Below are positions 45,389 through 60,862 of a DNA stretch of 64,000 nt, one piece after another. The position numbers and the translations under genes are program-made. A model generated the notes under the pieces. It saw only the letters and a list, made by a program, of their open reading frames with translations. It did no database searches and had not been told where the DNA came from. The stretch is from Antedon mediterranea (taxonomy: Eukaryota; Echinodermata; Crinoidea; Comatulida; Antedonidae): positions 19,190,101-19,254,100 of the forward strand of contig NC_092677.1 in assembly GCF_964355755.1 (NCBI RefSeq). Direction: 5' to 3'. The stretch's first letter is position 1. Each line of letters begins with the position of its first letter.

Positions 45389-48300
45389 CTATTTAAAAAC
45401 CTTTCCGGGGTTCATTAGCCCCTTAGGATCCAGGGTATTCTTCAATTGCTTCATCACTGTCATTGCTCCATCACCTACTTCTTTAACCAAAAGATCTCTC
45501 TTACCAAGACCAATTCCATGCTCACCAGTACATGTTCCACCTACTGCAATAGCCCGCCTATAGATTAAAACAGACCCACAAAACATTTACGTCAATTCCA
45601 AAGTTGGTAATTTTGTTGTAACTGAAACCCTGGGTTTTGTTAGGAAAATAGGATGGTACTGTCATTTGGTAAATGAATTGAAGGATCCCAATGGAAATAA
45701 GCTAATAAGGTTTTTGGGCTATCCTAGAAAATCTTTTATAAATGTATTTATCATGTCAGTAATTTTTGTATGATGATTTTCCTAATAAACTCAATTCAAT
45801 TCATCATTCACCTCATGCCATTATTTGTACCCATTCCACTCATAACATTCATTATTCACCTCATGCCATTATTTTGTACCCATTCCACTCATAACATTCA
45901 TCATTCACCTCATGCCATTATTTGTACCCATTCCACTCATAACATTCATCATTCACCTCATGCCATTATTTGTACCCATTCCACTCATAACATTCATCAT
46001 TCACCTCATGCCATTATTTGTACCCATTCCACTCATAACATTCATCATTCACCTCATGCCATTATTTGTACCCATTCCACTCATAACATTCATCATTCAC
46101 CTCATGCCATTATTGGTACCCATTCCACTCATAACATTCATCATTCACCTCATGCCATTATTTGTACCCATTCCACTCATAACATTCATCATTCACCTCA
46201 TGCCATTATTTGTACCCATTCCACTCATAACATTCATCATTCACCTCATGCCATTATTTGTACCCATTCCACTCATAACATTCATTATTCACCTCATGCC
46301 ATTATTTGTACCCATTCCACTCATAACATTCATCATTCACCTCATGCCATTATTTGTACCCATTCCACTCATAACATTCATCATTCACCTCATGCCATTA
46401 TTTGTACCCATTCCACTCATAACATTCATCATTCACCTCATGCCATTATTTGTACCCATTCCACTCATAACATTCATTATTCACCTCATGCCATTATTTG
46501 TACCCATTCCACTCATAACATTCATTATTCACCTCATGCCATTATTTGTACCCATTCCACTCATAACATTCATTATTCACCTCATGCCATTATTTGTACC
46601 CATTCCACTCATAACATTCATCATTCACCTCATGCCATTATTTGTACCCATTCCACTCATAACATTCATCATCACCTCATGCCATTATTTGTACCCATTC
46701 CACTCATAACATTCATCATTCACCTCATAACATTCATCATTCACCTCATGCCATTATTTGTACCCATTCCACTCATAACATTCATCATTCACCTCATGCC
46801 ATTATTTGTACCCATTCCACTCATAACATTCATCATTCACCTCATGCCATTATTTGTACCCATTCCACTCATAACATTCATCATTCACCTCATGCCATTT
46901 TGTACCCATTCCACTCATAACATTCATCATTCACCTCATGCCATTATTTGTACCCATTCCACTCATAACATTCATCATTCACCTCATGCCATTATTTGTA
47001 CCCATTCCACTCATTATTCACCTCATGCCATTATTTGTACCCATTCCACTCATAACATTCATCATTCACCTCATGCCATTATTTGTACCCATTCCACTCA
47101 TAACATTCATCATTCACCTCATGCCATTATTTGTACCCATTCCACTCATAACATTCATCATTCACCTCATGCCATTATTTGTACCCATTCCACTCATAAC
47201 ATTCATCATTCACCTCATGCCATTATTTGTACCCATTCCACTCATAACATTCATCATTCACCTCATGCCATTATTTGTACCCATTCCACTCATAACATTC
47301 ATCATTCACCTCATGCCATTATTTGTACCCATTCCACTCATAACATTCATTATTCACCTCATGCCATTATTTGTACCCATTCCACTCATAACATTCATCA
47401 TTCACCTCATGCCATTATTTGTACCCATGCCACTCATAACATTCACCTCATGCCATTATTTGTACCCATTCCACTCATAACATTCATCATTCACCTCATG
47501 CCATTATTTGTACCCATTCCACTAATAACATTCATCATTCACCTCATGCCATTATTTGTACCCATTCCACTCATAACATTCATCATTCACCTCATGCCAT
47601 TATTTGTACCCATGCCACTCATAACATTCATCATTCACCTCATGCCATTATTTGTACCCATTCCACTCATAACATTCATCATTCACCTCATGCCATTATT
47701 TGTACCCATTCCACTCATAACATTCATCATTCACCTCATGCCATTATTTGTACCCATTCCACTCATAACATTCATCATTCACCTCATGCCATTATTTGTA
47801 CCCATTCCACTCATAACATTCATCATTCACCTCATGCCATTTTGTACCCATTCCACTCATCATTCACCTCATGCCATTATTTGTACCCATTCCACTCATA
47901 ACATTCATTATTCACCTCATGCCATTATTTGTACCCATTCCACTCATAACATTCATCATTCACCTCATGCCATTATTTGTACCCATTCCACTCATAACAT
48001 TCATCATTCACCTCATGCCATTTTGTACCCATTCCACTCATAACATTCATCATTCACCTCATGCCATTATTTGTACCCATTCCACTCATAACATTCATCA
48101 TTCACATACTACTGTAAAGTAAAATAGTTTTAAAATTCTTTGCTGGAACTGATGTGATTCTACTGTTTTTGTTCTGAAAACCCTGAATTGAAGTCTGATA
48201 AGAAATGTGATTACAGTTGGCTGATGTATTTATACTGAATGTTCGTCATTTATACTGCTTTATTTATGATGTTCATAAATGTTACATATCTAGTGAAGTA

Positions 48301-51300
48301 ATTTATGAGATACTTTATTGAAATGATGATTAAATGATTTTGTCAAAAAAACTAAAAAATGCATGCTTGCTACTAAAAATAGGAGGCAACAAAGTTAAGT
48401 TGTTAATATGATGTTCGCAACGAACCTGTTCACATTTGTTGAAATAACTTGAACTTGTTTAAATTCCTCAGGGAGACTAGGGTCAAAGAGCAATGCAGTA
48501 TGGAAATTTCCATCACCCACATGACCTATCATTGTACCTAAATATAAAAATTGCTTATACAGTAACTAATATTAAACTGACTAAAGTATCACATGATCTG
48601 ACTTTGGTAAACAAACATAGAGCAAGCAATGACACATAGATTTCATTCATTTAAAACAAATTCAAAATTAACAAAGCCATGATTTTAACAATTTAAGTCT
48701 GATTTTATTATGGAAATAATGTTATGTTCTTAACTTGCTCAATATGTATTGGATACACAAGTTAGTCATATCATGAAACTAATTGGGTGTCAGACTACCT
48801 GGCCATTCTTTCTGCCACTTCTTTTATTACTGGCAACTCTTCGGGGTTGTCTGGGTCAACTGTGATAAAGCAATGGAAGTTGCCATCACCAACATGACCA
48901 ACAATAGTACCTTGATTCAAATCAACAAATTCATTATTAATACAATTTGTCCAAAATATTATTTACTGTATACTCTTTCAATTTTTTCTTATAACAAAAG
49001 TATACCAAGTATTGGTACAAGTTATTTTCGATTTAACGATTACAAACAAATCAAACAGTCTGGAATTGTTCAACCAAGTGTTTCCTCACACTCAGCTATC
49101 CATTTTTTGTAAAGCACCTTACTGTTGAAAACATTCACTTCTTTCTGTGTGCTAATCTTCAAATTAATTTAAACTCATTTAAATCTTATTTTTTTCACAA
49201 ACCCTGTTTCTGCACGTCATCATCTGACATAATATCATTATCATAATTATTAATACTGAAGAAATTCTATTATTTACTTATGGCAATAGAATGAAATCTA
49301 TAGAGGTTTGTTTGACTATAGTGCAAATTCAAGTTTTTGTAAACGTTTTGAAATGTTTGTATGACACGCTGAATGCACAACTGACAATAAAACTGTAGTG
49401 TGTCGCAATTTTACATGGCCTAGGCTTTGATATTCAATTGAAGTGGCAGATTAATTGAATAAAAGTTTACTTAAGAACAATAGGTTTTAAAGCCATCTAT
49501 TTAAAGTCTGACTGTTGACTCCGTCTTGTTAAATGGAACAGTCAATCTTTCAATAAGATATTCTCCACATTCAATAAACATCCATTATTTGGTACTAATA
49601 GTAGTACAATTACTGTATATTAATCATGTGGATTTATGAAAATTGGGGACATCAGACTAAATATAAATGTTGCTTTGCAAATTAATTAGTTGTATGCTTA
49701 CCCACAATTGATGATTTCAGAATATCTTCTTTAGTTGCAACTATAATCTCTGGAAGTTTCGATATTGGGACACACACATCAGTAGCATAACCCTACCATC
49801 AAAACAAGAACATTTATAAAGTACTCAGTATAAAACAAAACATTTAATGTGGATTTCGCCAACTGCTATGATTAACATAAAAGAGCCAAATAGAGAATTC
49901 TTAGTAACTTTTTCATTCAGCAGTTTATCTTTGGATGTTTTTTCTTTCAGGCATTGCTTCTGTGTTGTACATTCAACATTTAAATTAGCATATGGGTCAT
50001 GATGCAAAATAAAGATTGATTGACAACTGCACAAATAAAAATAGTGTGATAGCCTGTAGGGATTATACAATTAAAGACACTAGGCTAGAAATAAATGCAG
50101 CCAAAATAACTGCACAGTGGCTTGCTAGTTCAGTTTTACCTTGGTTCCAGGTCGTAGAGCAAGAGTAGCGTACCAACAGTTATGCCTGGCCTTCCACAAC
50201 TTATTGCGGTCTTCTTGCTTTTCAGCCCAATAAAAATCTGATCCACCATTCATTTGAGCTAGCTCCTCTAAAAATAGCAAGAAACATTTAAATATACTTA
50301 GTTCAGTATATACCTATATAATTATTTAAGGAGTTTTCAACCTAGAATGCCTTACCTACAAGTTCCACTTGAGCTTTGATAGCATCTTGAGCCCCATGGA
50401 ATTCAAGAAACAGTGTTGGTGACACCTTATGTGAAAGATTGCTGAATCTGTTGCAGGCATCAATCATAACATCATCTAAAAATTCTACAAACAATGCAAA
50501 GGATATAGATTTCACAAAAAAACTCAGAATTGGACACATCATAATTTGTTATTATTAGCCTGGGTGCAGAACAGTTTATATACACATTTGTGGGAAAAAA
50601 ATAAAGGGATTTTTTTTGGTTTTTCTGATAGAGTATACCATATAGAATCTCAGAAAAAAAAAATCCCCATCTTGGGCAAATTTTGTTACAGCACATTTAA
50701 ATTTTGGCCTATACACAAACAATTTGCTCTCATGAATTCTGGCATAAGACTACGTGCACTTAATACCAAAACAAAACGGTTTAGGTGCTCGTTTGTACCT
50801 AATGCTATACACTTATATAACTCCAGAGTACAAAGGTAAAATGTAACTGATAATTTTTATCTAATTTTAACAATTTTTAGCCTCTTAACTTTTTGTGTGT
50901 GTTCTTGTAAATTGTATTTTATATTTTTGTATTTTGCCAGTTTTCAAATCACATTTCTGTTTTTTAAATGGACAATAAAGTATATATGACTATGACTATG
51001 ACTACACACGCAAATACTGTACCTATAACACACACAAATACCTATATATTAGAGGGAAAACCAATTCACGTTTTGTGTCAATTGGAATTGTGTTATAATG
51101 ATTAAAATTAAAACCAAAAATAAATTTTCCTTTACTTATTTTGCGCAAAATGTGTACTGCATCCTGGCTATATGTATGTGTACTAAAAACAAAATGTTTA
51201 GAATTAAAGTTGTAAATAAGGCTCTTTTACTTTTTATTAGTAGTTGCTTCTTTAAATAAAGAATAAAATGTTAAATCACAGAGGTTGTATTAAATAGTGA

Positions 51301-54300
51301 TAATGTAATGTTACCAATCCTAGCCATAGGTATCCCACACTGCATCACCTGCATCACAGTGTCCACTGCTGATTTGACGGTTTCAAAAGAACACACTGCG
51401 GACATCATCTGATAAAATGGAGTATAATAATAATAATATAAAAATACCTATATTATTAAAGAGAATTTAGCACATTTTTTTGTTTTCTTATTTTCACATA
51501 AATACATTTTGTATGGATTATCAACATAACCAGAATTTGTACTGAGAAGGCTTATACTAAATTTGAAAATTATGCTTCATTAACTCCCTAAGCCTGTAAA
51601 ATTGTCCTGGACCAACCTGCTTTACATTCTGCTATTAAAACTACGGCTGCAATAAATTTGTTTATGAATACTTATCATCATGAGAAAAAATTGTTTTTTT
51701 TTATATTAACTGAATGAGTCCTTGTATTATACACAGCATGTGGGCACTGTATGACATGAAAAGAATGAAAAGAATAAATTAACAATAGAAACAGTTTTAC
51801 ATGTGATGTCACTTGTAATGAACGCAAAAAAAAGATTAAAATATTATTTAAATTTATTATTTAAGATCTAAAACATAGTAGTTTTTTAAGAGAATATGGT
51901 CATTTCTGTGGTCCAAAATCACCTTGTATGACTCTTGGGAAAATATTGAAGGATAGGATGGATCAAGTACTGCCTAATATAAATTTAGTATAAATTTAAA
52001 GTTTATAAACCAAAATATAATAGTGTATATGAAAAAAATAATACAATTATAATAGCATCTGGTTGTACTTTATAATACGAGCACTTACACTTTCTGGAAT
52101 GCCATACAGACGAACTGTTGCCTGGGTAATAATTCCCAGCGTTCCTTCTGAACCAACAAACAAATTGGTGAGGTTATAGCCTGCTGAGGTTTTTCTAAAA
52201 AAAATGAATGGTTTATTTTACAATCATGCAAAAATGATCTGGCTATCTAGTTTGGCCTCATGCATGAAATGTACATGAACTGATTGATTGAAATATATAT
52301 TTATACTGGGTAACCTCTTCAGTCAAAGACTGGTCTCCCAGAGGGCCCAGTTATGATCAGTGGCTGTGATGTACTAGTACACCGGGGTAACCCCCTACTC
52401 ATCTCGAAAGATGTACTAGGTTCTTTAAAGTGCACACGAGCTAGATGTGTACACTGGACCTACGGTTTATAATCCTTATCCGAGAAGACTTGTTCTACCA
52501 CCAGAACCATGGAGTGAGTGAGCCTCGAACACCTGCCGATGTTATGGCTACGTAATTACGGTTCCACTGTCTTAACCGCTCGGCCACTCACTCATGAAAA
52601 CAACAGTTATTTTTAAATTGAGATCCAACAGAAGATACAAAACTTTTAAAATGAATAAAGGTCTTATACAATATATTAACAGTGTCATCATCATTTCTCA
52701 ACATTTTCCTAGAGGGATGTTTTTTTTATGGATTTCGAGAGTCGGAGGCCTGATCGTCTCAATAGGCGTAGATATAGCATGTGGCTTGCACCTACGCCTA
52801 GGTGTAGACATAGCCACTGCGTAATAGTAAAGGTAAGTATTATTTAATACCCCTTTTACAATTCCTGCAAAAATGCATAGATGATCCCAATTGTGTACCC
52901 CGAGTTGTACAGGGGTTGCAGAAATCGGGTTCATGTAGACCAGTGTAAATGACGCAAAAAGTTATCTGGGTCACTGAACAACCCGGGTAAGTAAGTGGAA
53001 TGTATTCAGCATCAAGCCAACCAAGGACGAACTGTGTACTTGCCTGTTCGCGGTGTAAACAGTTGTGGTTGGTTGCTGTATTCGCTCACTATAGTATTAA
53101 ATTACATCCAATGAGAAAAATACTTATTTTGTTTGTTCACTTATTATAAAATAAAACGTATGGTTATTATTTGTTATTCATTTTAATTCAAGTAGACTTA
53201 GTTATTGCCATTAAAATAATTGCACGTGGTATAATGAGCAGACTGTTACTAATGCGTCTCTCGATGTGCGAGAGAGCAGTATTTTAATTAATCTAGAACA
53301 TTTTTACAGGTTGGTATTTTTCAGTGTAAATGCACGCAACCCATGTCATTCTTTGGTTAATAAAATGGGTATGAAAAGAAAATTTTTACGGACACTACAC
53401 AAGTTTGTTTTAAGCTCGGCGGTGTTACTCTGCTACATACTGTATACAGTATTATTATTGAAATTTTGGAAATACTACCTGAATACTGAATACTGAAATG
53501 CTTTATTTGTCCATCATCATCATAAAATAACAACAGAAATTCTTCTTGAAGATTGACAATTATTAGTACAATAATAAATAGATATACAATATAATATATT
53601 ATATACACACACATAATTGCACAAAAAGTTATGAAACACGGTGTAAAAATGACTAGGTATTAAAATTGAGAAGGATTTAGGAGATTAAAATAGTTTAAAA
53701 CCAGGGATGTGGTTATCAGGGGGGCAGATATCAGGGGTGCAGTTATCAGAGGTGCGGTTATCAGGGGTGCGGTTATCAGTTCTTTTACCTGGATCTTTTA
53801 CCAGGACCAGCTGTATGCAGAATACTACCATCTGCTAACACAACCTCAAGGTTCATGACATTTTCACGCATTGTACCATATCTTACTGCGTTGGTCCCTG
53901 ATGCGCTTGTTGCACACATTCCACATACAGAAGCATGTGCACCAGGATCTAAAAAATGAAAATAGACAAAGCCAGAAAGTACATGAGCATAGTGTGGTAA
54001 CCAGGGATGCGGTTATCAGGGGTGCAGTTATCAGGGGTGCAGTTATCAGGGGTGCATTTATCAGGGGTGTAGTTATCAGGGATGCGGTTATCAGGGACGT
54101 GGTTATCAGCGATGTGGTTATCAGGGATGTGGTTATCAGGGGTACAGTTATCATTTCATTTACATTAAAAGAGCATTCTAGTACTAGGTGAAATGAAATG
54201 AAAATGAAATGAAAACATACCAATTGGAAACCAAAGACCTTGATCTTTTATATAGTTGTTGAGAGTTTCACGAGTTACACCTGGCCGAACAGTAACATCA

Positions 54301-57300
54301 AAATCATCCACATTCAGCTCAACAATTTCATCCATCTTGGTCAAATCTATTGTCACACCACCCTGTGCAGGGAACAATCATTTTGTATCATTCCCAATGG
54401 TTCTGACCAGTGGTTTTGATGCACACTATAGTTATTGTATGGAAATTTCAAAGACGTCGGATTATTCTAGACTAGAGATGCATACATACAAGGTATTCAA
54501 GACTCTTCTATTTAGAATATCAAAAAGAATCAATCAACTTTGCTGCCGAGTGTATATATGAAGGTCATGAAGAAGGTTGATGCAATGTTTACTCATTTAT
54601 TGTAAAGCAACCGTTATAAGACAAATGACTTCTTAAATAGTGACATTTATCATGTATTTATGAGTACATCATACAATTGTATTCATACTTTATGAGAAAA
54701 TGTGATTTAAAAATAAGGTACTTGATCAAGTTTAAAGCCAGCAAGCTTTGTGTGGGTACAAACATTAAGTTACTTTGTTTGAATTGAAGGAATTGAGTTG
54801 AGAGATATTCATTTATAAGTATATTTATATTAAATATATCTTTAAATATCTTTACTAGTAAAAAATGTAGGTTCATGGTGACCTTCCCGCAGGCATAATG
54901 GGTAAAATCTCAAATTTGAACAGAAATAATTTTCAGTGTCTTTTAAATTCTAAAAAGATGATTTGTTTAAATAGTTTGGTATAGTCTATATTAAAGGCTA
55001 CATATGTAAGTAAAATAATTTAATTCCACCAATATTGGATCATAAAAATAAGGTTCCTGTATTATGATACCAGCTGCTAAACATAATTTTAAGTTTGCTA
55101 GAATTACAAAATGTAAAGTACTGTAGCTTTTATATTCTGTAGATTCTAAATGTAAATTATTGTATTGTTGCGTCTGGCTCGGACAAACATTTTTCGGAAG
55201 AAAAGTTTGGTTCTGGGAGGTTTAATAACTTAATACAATTATGTTACATACTTTGTAACCAACAGCACCACCTTCCAGTCCAGTACCTGTGCCAAATGGA
55301 ATCATTGGAATGTTGTTGTCATAACAAACCTTAGCAATCTGACTGACTTGCTCTGTAGATTCTGGCCATACAACAACATCTGGTGGTGTACAACTAGAAC
55401 ATAAACACAATATTATATTAATTATAGAAAAACAAACTTTTCTAAAAATTATACTATAGTCGCCAAATAATTATATATATAATATATAGACACCCCCTAT
55501 TAAGCGGACAATGTGTTGGGTCTTGAAGGTGCCCCCCTAATAGGGGTTCTACTGTTGTTTATAATATACTGTACTAACACATGATGTGATTCACTACTGT
55601 TGTTTATAATATACTGTACTAACACATGATGTGATTCACTACTGTTGTTTATAATATACTGTACTAACACATGATGTGATTCACTACTGTTGTTTATAAT
55701 ATACTGTACTAACACATGATATGATTCACTACTGTTGTTTATAATATACTGTACTAACACATGATGTGATTCACTACTGTTGTTTATAATATACTGTACT
55801 AACACATGATGTGATTCACTACTGTTGTTTATAATATACTGTACTAACACATGATGTAATTCACTACTGTTGTTTATAATATACTGTACTAACACATGAT
55901 GTGATTCACTACTGTTGTTTATAATATACTGTACTAACACATGATGTAATTCACTACTGTTGTTTATAATATACTGTACTAACACATGATGTGATTCACT
56001 ACTGTTGTTTATAATATACTGTACTAACACATGATGTAATTCACTACTGTTGTTTATAATTATACTGTACTAACACATGATGTGATTCACTACTGTTGTT
56101 TATAATATACTGTACTAACACATGATGTGATTCACTACTGTTGTTTATAATATACTGTACTATTCACATGATGTGATTCACTACTGTTGTTTATAATATA
56201 CTGTACTAACATATGATGTGATTCACTACTGTTGTTTATAATATACTGTACTAACACATGATGTGATTCACTACTGTTGTTTATAATATACTGTACTATT
56301 CACATGATGTGATTCACTACTGTTGTTTATAATATACTGTACTAACACATGATGTGATTCACTACTGTTGTTTATAATATACTGTACTATTCACATGATG
56401 TGATTCACTACTGTTGTTTATAATATACTGTACTAACACATGATGTGATTCACTACTGTTGTTTATAATATACTGTACTAACACATGATGTGATTCACTA
56501 CTGTTGTTTATAATATACTGTACTATTCACATGATGTGATTCACTACTGTTGTTTATAATATACTGTACTAACACATGATGTGATTCACTACTGTTGTTT
56601 ATAATATACTGTACTAACACATGATGTGATTCACTACTGTTGTTTATAATATACTGTACTAACACATGATGTGATTCACTACTGTTGTTTATAATATACT
56701 GTACTAACACATGATGTGATTCACTGTTGTTTATAATATACTGTACTAACACATGATGTGATTCACTACTGTTGTTTATAATATACTGTACTAACACATG
56801 ATGTGATTCACTACTGTTGTTTATAATATACTGTACTAACACATGATGTGATTCACTACTGTTGTTTATAATATACTGTACTAACACATGATGTGATTCA
56901 CTACTGTTGTTTATAATATACTGTACTAACACATGATGTGATTCACTACTGTTGTTTATAATATACTGTACTAACACATGATGTGATTCACTACTGTTGT
57001 TTATAATATACTGTACTAACACATGATGTGATTCACTACTGTTGTTTATAATATACTGTACTAACACATGATGTGATTCACTACTGTTGTTTATAATATA
57101 CTGTACTAACACATGATGTGATTCACTACTGTTGTTTATAATATACTGTACTAACACATGATGTGATTCACTACTGTTGTTTATAATATACTGTACTAAC
57201 ACATGATGTGATTCACTACTGTTGTTTATAATATACTGTACTAACACATGATGTGATTCACTACTGTTGTGTATAATATACTGTACTAACACATGATGTG

Positions 57301-59677
57301 ATTCACTACTGTTGTTTATAATATACTGTACTAACACATGATGTGATTCACTACTGTTGTTTATAATATACTGTACTAACACATGATGTGATTCACTGTT
57401 GTTTATAATATACTGTACTAACACATGATGTGATTCACTACTGTTGTATATAATATACTGTACTAACACATGATGTGATTCACTACTGTTGTTTATAATA
57501 TACTGTACTAACACATGATGTGATTCACTACTGTTGTTTATAATATACTGTACTAACACATGATGTAATTCACTACTGTTGTTTATAATATACTGTACTA
57601 AAACATGATGTGATTCACTACTGTTGTTTATAATATACTGTACTAACACATGATGTGATTCACTACTGTTGTTTATAATATACTGTACTAACACATGATG
57701 TGATTCACTACTGTTGTTTATAATATACTGTACTAACACATGATGTGATTCACTACTGTTGTTTATAATATACTGTACTAACACATGATGTGATTCACTA
57801 CTGTTGTTTATAATATACTGTACTAACACATGATGTGATTCACTATACTGTTGTTTATAATATACTGTACTAACACATGATGTGATTCACTACTGTTGTG
57901 TATAATATACTGTACTAACACATGATGTGATTCACTACTGTTGTTTATAATATACTGTACTAACACATGATGTGATTCACTACTGTTGTTTATAATATAC
58001 TGTACTAACACATGATGTAATTCACTACTGTTGTTTATAATATACTGTACTAACACATGATGTGATTCACTATACTGTTGTTTATAATATACTGTACTAA
58101 CACATGATGTGATTCACTACTGTTGTGTATAATATACTGTACTAACACATGATGTGATTCACTACTGTTGTTTATAATATACTGTACTAACACATGATGT
58201 GATTCACTACTGTTGTTTATAATATACTGTACTAACACATGATGTAATTCACTACTGTTGTTTATAATATACTGTACTAACACATGATGTGATTCACTAC
58301 TGTTGTTTATAATATACTGTACTAACACATGATGTGATTCACTACTGTTGTGTATAATATACTGTACTAACACATGATGTGATTCACTACTGTTGTTTAT
58401 AATATACTGTACTATAACACATGATGTGATTCACTACTGTTGTGTATAATATACTGTACTAACACATGATGTGATTCACTACTGTTGTTTATAATATACT
58501 GTACTATAACACATGATGTGATTCACTACTGTTGTTTATAATATACTGTACTAACACATGATGTGATTCACTACTGTTGTGTATAATATACTGTACTAAC
58601 ACATGATGTGATTCACTACTGTTGTGTATAATATACTGTACTAACACATGATGTGATTCACTACTGTTGTGTATAATATACTGTACTAACACATGATGTG
58701 ATTCACTACTGTTGTGTATAATATACTGTACTAACACATGATGTGATTCACTACTGTTGTTTATAATATACTGTACTAACACATGATGTGATTCACTACT
58801 GTTGTTTATAATATACTGTACTAACACATGATGTGATTCACTACTGTTGTTTATAATATACTGTACTAACACATGATGTGATTCACTACTGTTGTTTATA
58901 ATATACTGTACTAACACATGATGTGATTCACTACTGTTGTTTATAATATACTGTACTAACACATGATGTGATTCACTACTGTTGTTTATAATATACTGTA
59001 CTAACACATGATGTGATTCACTACTGTTGTTTATAATATACTGTACTAACACATGATGTGATTCATCTCGTCCATGTTGCTCCCTAACAGGTAGCGATGT
59101 GCTAATGTTCTGTGTACCAACTACAGTTTCCAATGTTCCTACTACAAAATCTGGAATCTAGAGGAAAGCAACATTTTATGATGTAATAGATGATTTCAAT
59201 GTTAGGTTTGCTATTCAATGAATCTTACTTACTGCCTTTCCCAGCCTGGTCCCTGACCTGCAGCCAAACCTTTGGTCTACCTTTTGTTCCACTCTTTACC
59301 ATTTAAGTTGTTGTTTGAATTATTGTTGTTGATATTGCTCATTCGTGGTAGCTTGTCTGCAACCAAACTTCCAGGACGTTGTGAACTTTCTTTAGATCAC
59401 CTGTTCTCTGAACCCAAGTGGGGAATGTTTGGCCTAAATAGGGATGTAAACCCCCTAATAAAAAAAGCTGGTGACGTCCCTGGTGGATTTATTTATAACT
59501 CACCTTTTGATATAAATTTCTATAATACATTTAATGATTAAAACTGCTATTTACCTCTCTTTCAAGTGTAAAAGTGCTTTTTAGTTGCTTGGAATAGATT
59601 ATGGATGCTGCACGATTAATAAAAGGTGATGAAGTCTGTCTCCATAAGGATTTGCTTAGGACATTCAGGAGACTCAT
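45389..59677 (-). CDS. LDHD: D-lactate dehydrogenase, mitochondrial, FAD-dependent
   Basis: Oxidises D-lactate (from methylglyoxal detoxification) to pyruvate in mitochondria, passing electrons to cytochrome c; VAO/PCMH flavoprotein family. Exons (minus): 59,555-59,677; 59,051-59,157; 55,252-55,393; 54,221-54,362; 53,789-53,948; 52,089-52,194; 51,315-51,408; 50,356-50,484; 50,140-50,267; 49,702-49,792; then 48,799-48,910 or 48,426-48,537; 45,389-45,557. With one of the two alternatives the total is 1503 nt, 500 residues, close to the human protein. Residues 1-41 form an Arg/Lys/Ser-rich mitochondrial presequence ([14 protein letters not shown]). [10 protein letters not shown] is at about 65-75, FAD-domain motifs [11 protein letters not shown] and [10 protein letters not shown] at about 105-160, [15 protein letters not shown] and [14 protein letters not shown] at 190-250, GHVGDGNFH at 412-420, and TCTGEHGIG at 453-460. 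His413, His420 and Glu457 match the metal-binding residues of the family, and His458 the catalytic base (family knowledge). No stops or frameshifts. Confidence 0.95.
45797..48108. repeat. Minisatellite, 48-bp unit, about 48 copies, LDHD intron 11
   Basis: The unit runs atttgtacccattccactca, taacattcatcattcacctc, atgccatt. Most copies differ only at cattattcac/catcattcac or by small deletions (24 bp lost near 46,720 and 47,010). 48 is a multiple of three and the unit has no stop in two frames, giving spurious frames of up to 757 codons. On the transcribed minus strand each unit contains GAG|GTGAAT, a donor-like sequence. Confidence 0.97.
48426..48537 (-). CDS. LDHD: LDHD alternative exon 11b
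   Basis: Also exactly 112 nt with the same phases. Encodes [13 protein letters not shown] followed by [20 protein letters not shown] and TNVN. Acceptor ttatatttag|, donor acag|gttcgt. Including both 11a and 11b would shift the frame, so they should be mutually exclusive. The core metal/catalytic motif is unchanged, while nearly all of the following 24 residues differ. Confidence 0.85.
48799..48910 (-). CDS. LDHD: LDHD alternative exon 11a
   Basis: 112 nt, entered in phase 1 and left in phase 2. Encodes [12 protein letters not shown] followed by [20 protein letters not shown]. The acceptor is atcaag| with a weak pyrimidine tract and the donor is ccag|gtagtc. The residues after NFH (Cys, then hydrophobic, EEL, K..AE) resemble human LDHD more than exon 11b does, so this is probably the ancestral version. 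Confidence 0.88.
50720..51005 (+). mobile_element. LINE 3' end, antisense in LDHD intron 7
   Basis: A terminal ORF2-like frame reads [20 protein letters not shown] then NS to TAA, typical of the C-terminus of non-LTR elements. An AT-rich 3' UTR with 'aataaag' follows, and a simple tail (tatgac)n closes it at 50,985-51,003. 5'-truncated. Confidence 0.65.
52278..52594 (-). mobile_element. tRNA-derived SINE in LDHD intron 5
   Basis: On the minus strand the head reads gagtgagtggccgagcggtt aag (A box of a Leu/Ser-type tRNA) and ggtgttcgaggc (B box). A conserved body follows (gtgcacttta, agtacatctttcgaga, gagtagggggttaccccggt, ctgggagaccagtctttgac) and then a short tgattgattga tail. The body is of the kind conserved in many marine-invertebrate SINEs. 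Confidence 0.75.
53702..53781. repeat. 15-bp minisatellite, LDHD intron 5 side
   Basis: About five copies of ggttatcaggggtgc with substitutions, ending 7 bp from the donor of LDHD exon 5. The same repeat lies on the other side of that exon. Confidence 0.85.
53998..54152. repeat. 15-bp minisatellite, LDHD intron 4 side
   Basis: About ten copies of ggttatcaggggtgc with variants gggatgc, gggacgt and gcgatgt. It begins about 50 bp upstream of the exon 5 acceptor on the minus strand. Confidence 0.88.
55548..59065. repeat. 45-bp minisatellite copying the exon 2/intron 2 junction of LDHD, about 78 copies
   Basis: The minus-strand unit is GAATCACATCATGTGTTAGT, ACAGTATATTATAAACAACA, GTAGT. The first 14 nt equal the last 14 nt of LDHD exon 2, and the next GTTAGT is its 5' splice site, so the exon end is the first unit of the array. 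Variants: ttcac/gtaattcac changes, 42-bp units (3 bp lost), and units with +1 or +2 bp that break the frame. From the exon to about 58,504 the frame is open across roughly 12 units. Confidence 0.97.
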
Positions 59678-60167: not shown

Positions 60168-60862
60168 CGAGGCAACAATGTACACGTCGCAACACACATC
60201 GTATGGCTCGTGTGGTGGTGGTGCGCAACAATGTACACGTCGCAACACACATCGTAAGGCTCGTGTGGTGGTGGTGCGCAACAATGTACACGTCGCAACA
60301 CAAATCGTAAGGCTCGTGTGGTGGTGGTGCGCAACAATGTACACGTCGCAACACACATCGTAAGGCTCGTGTGGTGGTGGTGCGCAACAATGTACACGTC
60401 GCAACACACATCGTAAGGCTCGTGTGGTGGTGGTGCGCAACAATGTACACGTCGCAACACACATCGTAAGGCTCGTGTGGTGGTGGTGCGCAACAATGTA
60501 CACGTCGCAACACACATCGTAAGGCTCGTGTGGTGGTGGTGCGCAACAATGTACACGTCGCAACACACATCGTAAGGCTCGTGTGGTGGTGGTGCGCAAC
60601 AATGTACACGTCGCAACACACATCGTAAGGCTCGTGTGGTGGTGGTGCGCAACAATGTACACGTCGCAACACACATCGTAAGGCTCGTGTGGTGGTGGTG
60701 CGCAACAATGTACACGTCGCAACACACATCGTAAGGCTCGTGTGGTGGTGGTGCGCAACAATGTACACGTCGCAACACACATCGTATGGCTCGTGTGGTG
60801 GTGGTGCGCAACAATGTACACGTCGCAACACACATCGTATGGCTCGTGTGGTGGTGGTGGTA
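60168..60862. repeat. Minisatellite, 53-bp unit, about 13 copies
   Basis: The unit runs cgtaaggctcgtgtggtggt, ggtgcgcaacaatgtacacg, tcgcaacacacat, with very little divergence (aagg/atgg at the array edges). 53 is not a multiple of three, yet all minus-strand frames stay open, producing spurious frames of up to 350 codons. The GC content is higher than in the surroundings. Confidence 0.95.

Follow-up and report, generated by a model that had tools for sequence, protein, structure and literature searches.

The minus-strand gene studied here, within a 64-kb stretch of DNA (the window), is, judging from its predicted protein, LDHD, the gene for mitochondrial D-lactate dehydrogenase; both domains and the closest solved structures agree on this identity. 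Exons 1–6, 10, two versions of exon 11, and exon 12 were placed by script, exons 8 and 9 were recognised by eye, and exon 7 was not located. Exon 1 (59555–59677) runs from an ATG at 59677 to the donor GAG/GTAAAT, and the N-terminus that it encodes looks like a putative mitochondrial leader. Exon 2 (59051–59157, 107 nt) closes with GACGAGATGAATCACATCATGT, and the donor TGT/GTTAGT (59045–59050), called donor 1 below, comes directly after it. Exon 3 (55252–55393) follows the acceptor TTCTAG and begins with TTGTACACCACCAGATG; together with the remainder of the gene it occupies 45395–55393, where exons 3–6 and 10–12 were joined by script. All of these features lie on the minus strand. The joined exons 1–6 gave a Pfam match to FAD_binding_4 (134.5 bits) that begins at residue 81 of the joined protein, and the joined exons 10–12 matched FAD-oxidase_C (138.4 bits). 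The best PDB matches of exons 2–3 and 10–12 were 8jdb and 8jdc, labelled "Probable D-lactate dehydrogenase, mitochondrial", which we take to be mouse structures. Every exon examined (1–6 and 10–12) is open and matches the family.

Exon 11 occurs in two tandem versions on the minus strand, at 48799–48910 and 48426–48537, each of 112 nt and with AG and GT borders. Both encode the peptide GHVGDGNFH, and either one, placed between exons 10 and 12, yields a FAD-oxidase_C match (138.4 and 135.0 bits, respectively). With both included, the frame shifts and stops appear, which makes the two predicted versions look mutually exclusive. In the literature searched, the only paper to mention both LDHD and mutually exclusive exons was a pig transcriptome study.

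The most prominent feature of the gene is a minisatellite that starts inside exon 2 and fills most of intron 2. TRF described it as a single array on the minus strand at 55549–59065, with a period of 45 bp, 78.0 copies and 97% matches, in keeping with the claim of an earlier sequence-only reading that about 78 units continue exon 2 into the intron. That reading had placed the end of the array at 59157, which is in fact the first base of exon 2, and had counted 14 nt shared between the exon and the unit, one fewer than the 15 nt found here (TGAATCACATCATGT); its position for the exon 2 donor, 59,050, is the first base of donor 1. The 45-bp unit consists of these 15 exon nucleotides, the donor GTTAGT and 24 further nucleotides, and copy 1 has the final 15 nt of exon 2 as its exon part, so that the array spans the exon–intron boundary. 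By script, 78 unit starts and 77 complete units were counted, the latter measuring 45 bp (66 units), 46 bp (five), 47 bp (four) or 42 bp (two).

The donor has been retained along nearly the whole array. GTTAGT stands at the exon edge in 71 of the 78 copies and GT in 73, the full set of variants being TGT/GTTAGT (70 copies), TAT/GTTAGT (1), TGT/GTTATA (2), TGT/GAATAG (4) and TGT/TTTAGT (1). The 20-nt block of exon end plus donor, GAATCACATCATGTGTTAGT, occurs exactly 63 times in the window and not once in 100 shuffles. Because nearly every copy has a donor in its exon context, LDHD intron 2 now holds some 70 predicted decoy donors.

A search of the animal's own genome with exon 2 plus the beginning of the array placed all 76 of the 76 matches at the LDHD locus, although this search skips very common words and is no proof of absence elsewhere. 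On these matches, the idea that the repeat forms part of a dispersed satellite was rejected. Another doubt concerns the assembly, in which the array, or its length, might not be real. Assemblers can err in copy number where units are identical, as are the 47 of 77 that equal the consensus, and one of the comparable arrays of amphioxus was misassembled in a genome draft (PMC3087553). Against this, 12 unit types are interspersed in a definite order, and each flank matches fully at one place, inside a 28.6-Mb contig, so an artefact of this kind is highly improbable.

The far border of the array touches a second kind of repeat. A fragment of a dispersed element at 55489–55555 on the minus strand reads ACAGTAG followed by AACCCCTATTAGGGGG, and the 7 nt at its start double as the end of the repeat unit; the fragment begins ACAGTAGAACCCCTATTA. 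The 155 bases beyond the array match in full only at the LDHD locus in the animal's own genome, and the first 64 of them have partial matches at 12 other places, with 80–94% identity. In six of these 12 places CARTAG stands directly before AAC, as it does in the repeat unit, and in the other six it is absent. A query that reached back into the unit gave six matches outside the LDHD locus. Four of them have ACAGTAG, 7 nt inside the unit, as their start; the other two begin 4 and 13 nt further in. The unit thus looks like a chimera, to judge by its parts: 15 nt come from exon 2, about 23 nt, with the donor included, from intron 2, and 7 nt resemble the start of the element. These final 7 nt are the one stretch of the unit that resembles part of a dispersed element.

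Two of the element matches, L007 and L010, soon go on with GGGGTTGG...TAGTGTTA, which could be the imperfect inverted end of a small DNA transposon.

The simplest origin for the array would be one 45-bp tandem duplication across the exon 2/intron 2 boundary of LDHD. That duplication would have captured 15 coding nucleotides of the exon, the donor within about 23 nt of intron, and 7 nt from the start of the adjoining dispersed element; growth to about 78 copies could then have proceeded by unequal exchange or slippage.

What the array could do to the protein depends on which copy is spliced. The frame from exon 2 stays open up to a stop at 58506–58504. When each donor position was joined in turn to exon 3, only the first 13 of the 78 (minus strand, 58510–59050, with first bases from 59050 to 58510) kept the frame without a stop; the remaining 65, positions 14–78, lie behind the in-frame stop, and 60 of these keep GT. 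Read from the sequence, donors 2–13 would lengthen the LDHD protein in frame and positions 14–78 would not. Exon 2 would measure 107, 152, 197 or 242 nt with donors 1–4, respectively. The open frame ends where the sequence-only reading had put its end, at 58,504, but its count of about 12 open units becomes 13 donor positions in frame. Translation bore out the 15-residue insert that it had given for each added unit; this repeat peptide has no Pfam family match at E 0.001.

There is no sign in the sequence that the array is kept for coding, because frame-breaking indels occur in it and mutation types are no scarcer over the donor. Of the 11 units that are not 45 bp long, nine shift the frame and two do not, on which grounds selection for frame along the array was rejected. 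Counted from the unit list, the exon end with its donor (20 nt) shows six mutation types, against five in the remaining 25 nt. Neither these counts nor the indels point to conservation of donors or frame over the length of the array, and nothing in what was found suggests a used, length-variable protein region.

One way that the array might nevertheless be put to use is as a series of graded splice sites, with a substantial share of mRNAs ending exon 2 at donors 2–13 and thereby gaining 15n residues before the FAD-binding domain, in lengths that vary between individuals. The frame is kept at 13 of the 78 donor positions and 66 of the 77 units measure 45 bp, human IFI6 is said to yield three mRNAs by such donors (PMC4526556), and comparable amphioxus arrays are unstable in length (PMC3087553), all of which would accord with this. 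However, the insert would fall between DES and HHVC, where the alignment with solved LDHD is gapless, and just before the start of the FAD_binding_4 match; the repeat peptide lacks a Pfam match; nine of the 77 units are frameshifted by indels; and the amphioxus arrays seem not to disturb splicing (PMC3087553). Such regular use of donors 2–13 is unlikely. The sequence-only reading had offered either a field of decoy donors or a length-variable insert. Its field of decoys is real in the sequence, as are its 15-residue steps for donors 1–13, but 65 of 78 positions lie behind the stop and nine of 77 units have frameshifting indels.

It is also conceivable that the array is regulatory and under selection, for example as a U1-binding field or as an RNA structure masking the decoys. 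About 70 repeated donors could in principle bind U1. Mutation types are, however, no scarcer in the exon–donor part, and RNA folding was no better than that of dinucleotide shuffles, either for exon 2 with the first copies (z −0.10) or for the array alone (z −0.62). The concealment of decoy donors by RNA structure was rejected on the folding result, and little credence can be given to a selected regulatory array as a whole.

The choice among donors can be approached through homology. The junction made with donor 1 aligns to solved LDHD without a gap at the junction (98.5 bits, with one gap near the query start), whereas the donor 2 form is forced into a 15-residue gap and scores 79.2 bits, which upholds the earlier view that homology favours the first donor. 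As a comparison of sequences, the gapless alignment reveals which junction is ancestral; it does not show which one present-day splicing uses. A spliced retrocopy recording the donor in use was not found in the animal's own genome, where the DNA of exon 2 matched in full once and the protein of exon 3 likewise, with one further weak match (33%, E 0.08).

The choice rests on position and context, since 70 of the 78 positions have the same nine bases as donor 1, TGT/GTTAGT. Donor 1 itself looks weak against the donor consensus, with T at −1 and +3. With donor 1 in use, the introns flanking exon 2 measure 397 and 3657 nt, and donors 76–78 lie 275, 230 and 185 nt from the exon 3 acceptor. This nearness was counted against donor 1, as intron definition could favour donors so placed. 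The human data on donor competition, applied here to another animal, speak to such layouts: among donors of near-equal score, exon-definition layouts favour the upstream one, and in minigenes with two equal strong donors 52 nt apart, the upstream donor was used exclusively (PMC9225289). When both donors were weakened, the S and M constructs retained the upstream preference, and exon skipping resulted in the L and XL constructs; before strength matching, the downstream donor was mostly the preferred one in each of the four architecture classes, a bias that was stronger next to short introns (PMC9225289).

Taken to its end, intron definition would have the donors near the exon 3 acceptor in use, giving an exon 2 of about 3.5 kb with in-frame stops and a gene silenced or tuned by nonsense-mediated decay. 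An internal exon of 3.5 kb is disfavoured under exon definition, and exons 1–6 and 10–12 are open and family-like, with exon 3 matched in full once in the genome and once weakly, so that this sole copy, were it silenced, would have decayed little. The short introns left by donors 76–78 speak for this outcome, as does the human finding that the downstream donor gains from having a short intron behind it (PMC9225289). On balance it is very unlikely.

Exon definition would instead select the donor nearest the upstream acceptor, which is donor 1, and give the 107-nt exon. Because the junction that it makes aligns gaplessly with known LDHD, donor 1 is most likely the main site, and the next few donors may leak. 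Occasional use of donors 2–4 would add 15, 30 or 45 residues, and use of positions 14–78 would bring premature stops. The array would be mostly removed as intron if exon definition picks donor 1, and most likely it is tolerated because exon definition keeps to the first donor. Taken together, the locus is probably the product of a mirage-type 45-bp duplication (named for the amphioxus arrays described below) that expanded to about 78 copies, with donor 1 mostly used and its neighbours leaking occasionally.

A more elaborate possibility is a splicing rheostat that depends on copy number. Leak to the first dozen in-frame donors would then produce an LDHD ladder in steps of 15n residues, leak beyond them would produce decayed mRNA, and the balance would shift between individuals or cells with copy number. 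Somatic instability, as reported for the amphioxus Adh3 mirage (PMC3087553), would be in line with such shifts between cells; all the same, a rheostat is quite improbable.

The sequence-only reading knew of no described case of this form, and that claim fails, as both the amphioxus mirages (PMC3087553) and human IFI6, also called G1P3 or 6-16 (PMC4526556), are known. Mirages, named after the amphioxus Adh3 case, are minisatellite-like tandem repeats across exon–intron boundaries, described in Adh3 and in the globin genes BflGb6 and BflGb9, with units of 10–72 bp, 150–160 bp and 157 bp, respectively (PMC3087553). The BflGb9 mirage duplicates the 3′ boundary of exon 2, AG and GT splice signals occur in many but not all repeats, and the Adh3 data and RT-PCR of the globins suggest no interference with regular splicing (PMC3087553). 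Like them, the LDHD array has a unit made of exon end, splice signal and intron, with splice signals in many units. Mirages occur at 5′ or 3′ boundaries, and the LDHD array sits at a donor; it differs from them in the gene and in its copy number, about 78 against the six and three units of two BflGb6 haplotypes (PMC3087553). Length instability has been demonstrated for mirages, such as these haplotypes, whereas the LDHD array is known from one assembly. The start of an element inside the unit is a feature of the LDHD array that is not mentioned for mirages in the available text of PMC3087553. The array is best filed as a boundary minisatellite of known kind, namely a mirage at a splice donor.

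Human IFI6 resembles LDHD in its donors, for in both genes the repeat units carry them. The IFI6 minisatellite has a unit of about 12 bp, and a 1995 paper by Turri, Cuin and Porter reportedly concerns, by its title, a 6-16 minisatellite with multiple splice donors. Two downstream repeat units serve as splice donor sites and give rise to three mRNA species (PMC4526556, citing Turri et al. 1995; the 1995 work is also mentioned in PMC2915984, PMC3618361 and PMC2572611). Besides being another gene, LDHD differs in that it is known from genomic sequence, whereas in IFI6 several donors are reported to be used and downstream units give different isoforms, and in that no donor beyond the 13th keeps the LDHD frame. 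Internal tandem repeats, with units averaging 30 bp in four copies, have also been described for human genes in segmental duplications, where they sit at exon–intron boundaries (PMC2812944). Those too are minisatellite expansions at a boundary that alter gene structure, sometimes by activation of cryptic splice sites, but they may form new introns (PMC2812944), whereas in LDHD an old intron has grown. In Drosophila, introns have been gained by tandem duplication, which likewise involves a splice or proto-splice site, but it created new intron positions (PMC2891723), and none is evident in LDHD. In the open-licence literature searched, no case was found with this many donor copies, nor one in LDHD.

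If the animal is not a cephalochordate, the array would extend the mirage form beyond amphioxus. Moreover, about 70 copies of one donor make a natural ruler for how the spliceosome chooses among nearly equal donors: along the array, the distance from the upstream acceptor grows from 107 to 3579 nt and that to the downstream acceptor shrinks from 3657 to 185 nt, and exon definition predicts the first donor and intron definition the last.

The window contains other arrays as well. Array load was compared with a sample of 11 stretches of 10 kb, one from each large contig of a genome made up of 11 contigs of 22–41 Mb and seven of at most 567 kb. With arrays counted at no fewer than 4 copies and 150 bp, the sample held one (382 of 110,000 bp) and the 64-kb window five, in a comparison made with a small sample and a window that was not randomly picked. 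A sixth window array, at 1972–2242, falls outside the rule, with 3.3 copies in its best TRF row. A high genome-wide array load was rejected as the whole explanation on the basis of this one array against five.

A 48-bp minisatellite of 48.3 copies occupies 45799–48105 in the last LDHD intron, between the second version of exon 11 and exon 12, and a 53-bp unit is repeated 13 times with a 99% match at 60172–60859, beginning some 500 bp upstream of the LDHD start codon. The two introns that flank LDHD exon 5 each carry an array of 15-bp units, at 53712–53779 and 54002–54153, in the same orientation. Their units, GTTATCAGGGGTGCA and CAGGGATGCAGTTAT, are nearly the same motif in a different phase, and such direct repeats around exon 5 could promote loss of the exon.
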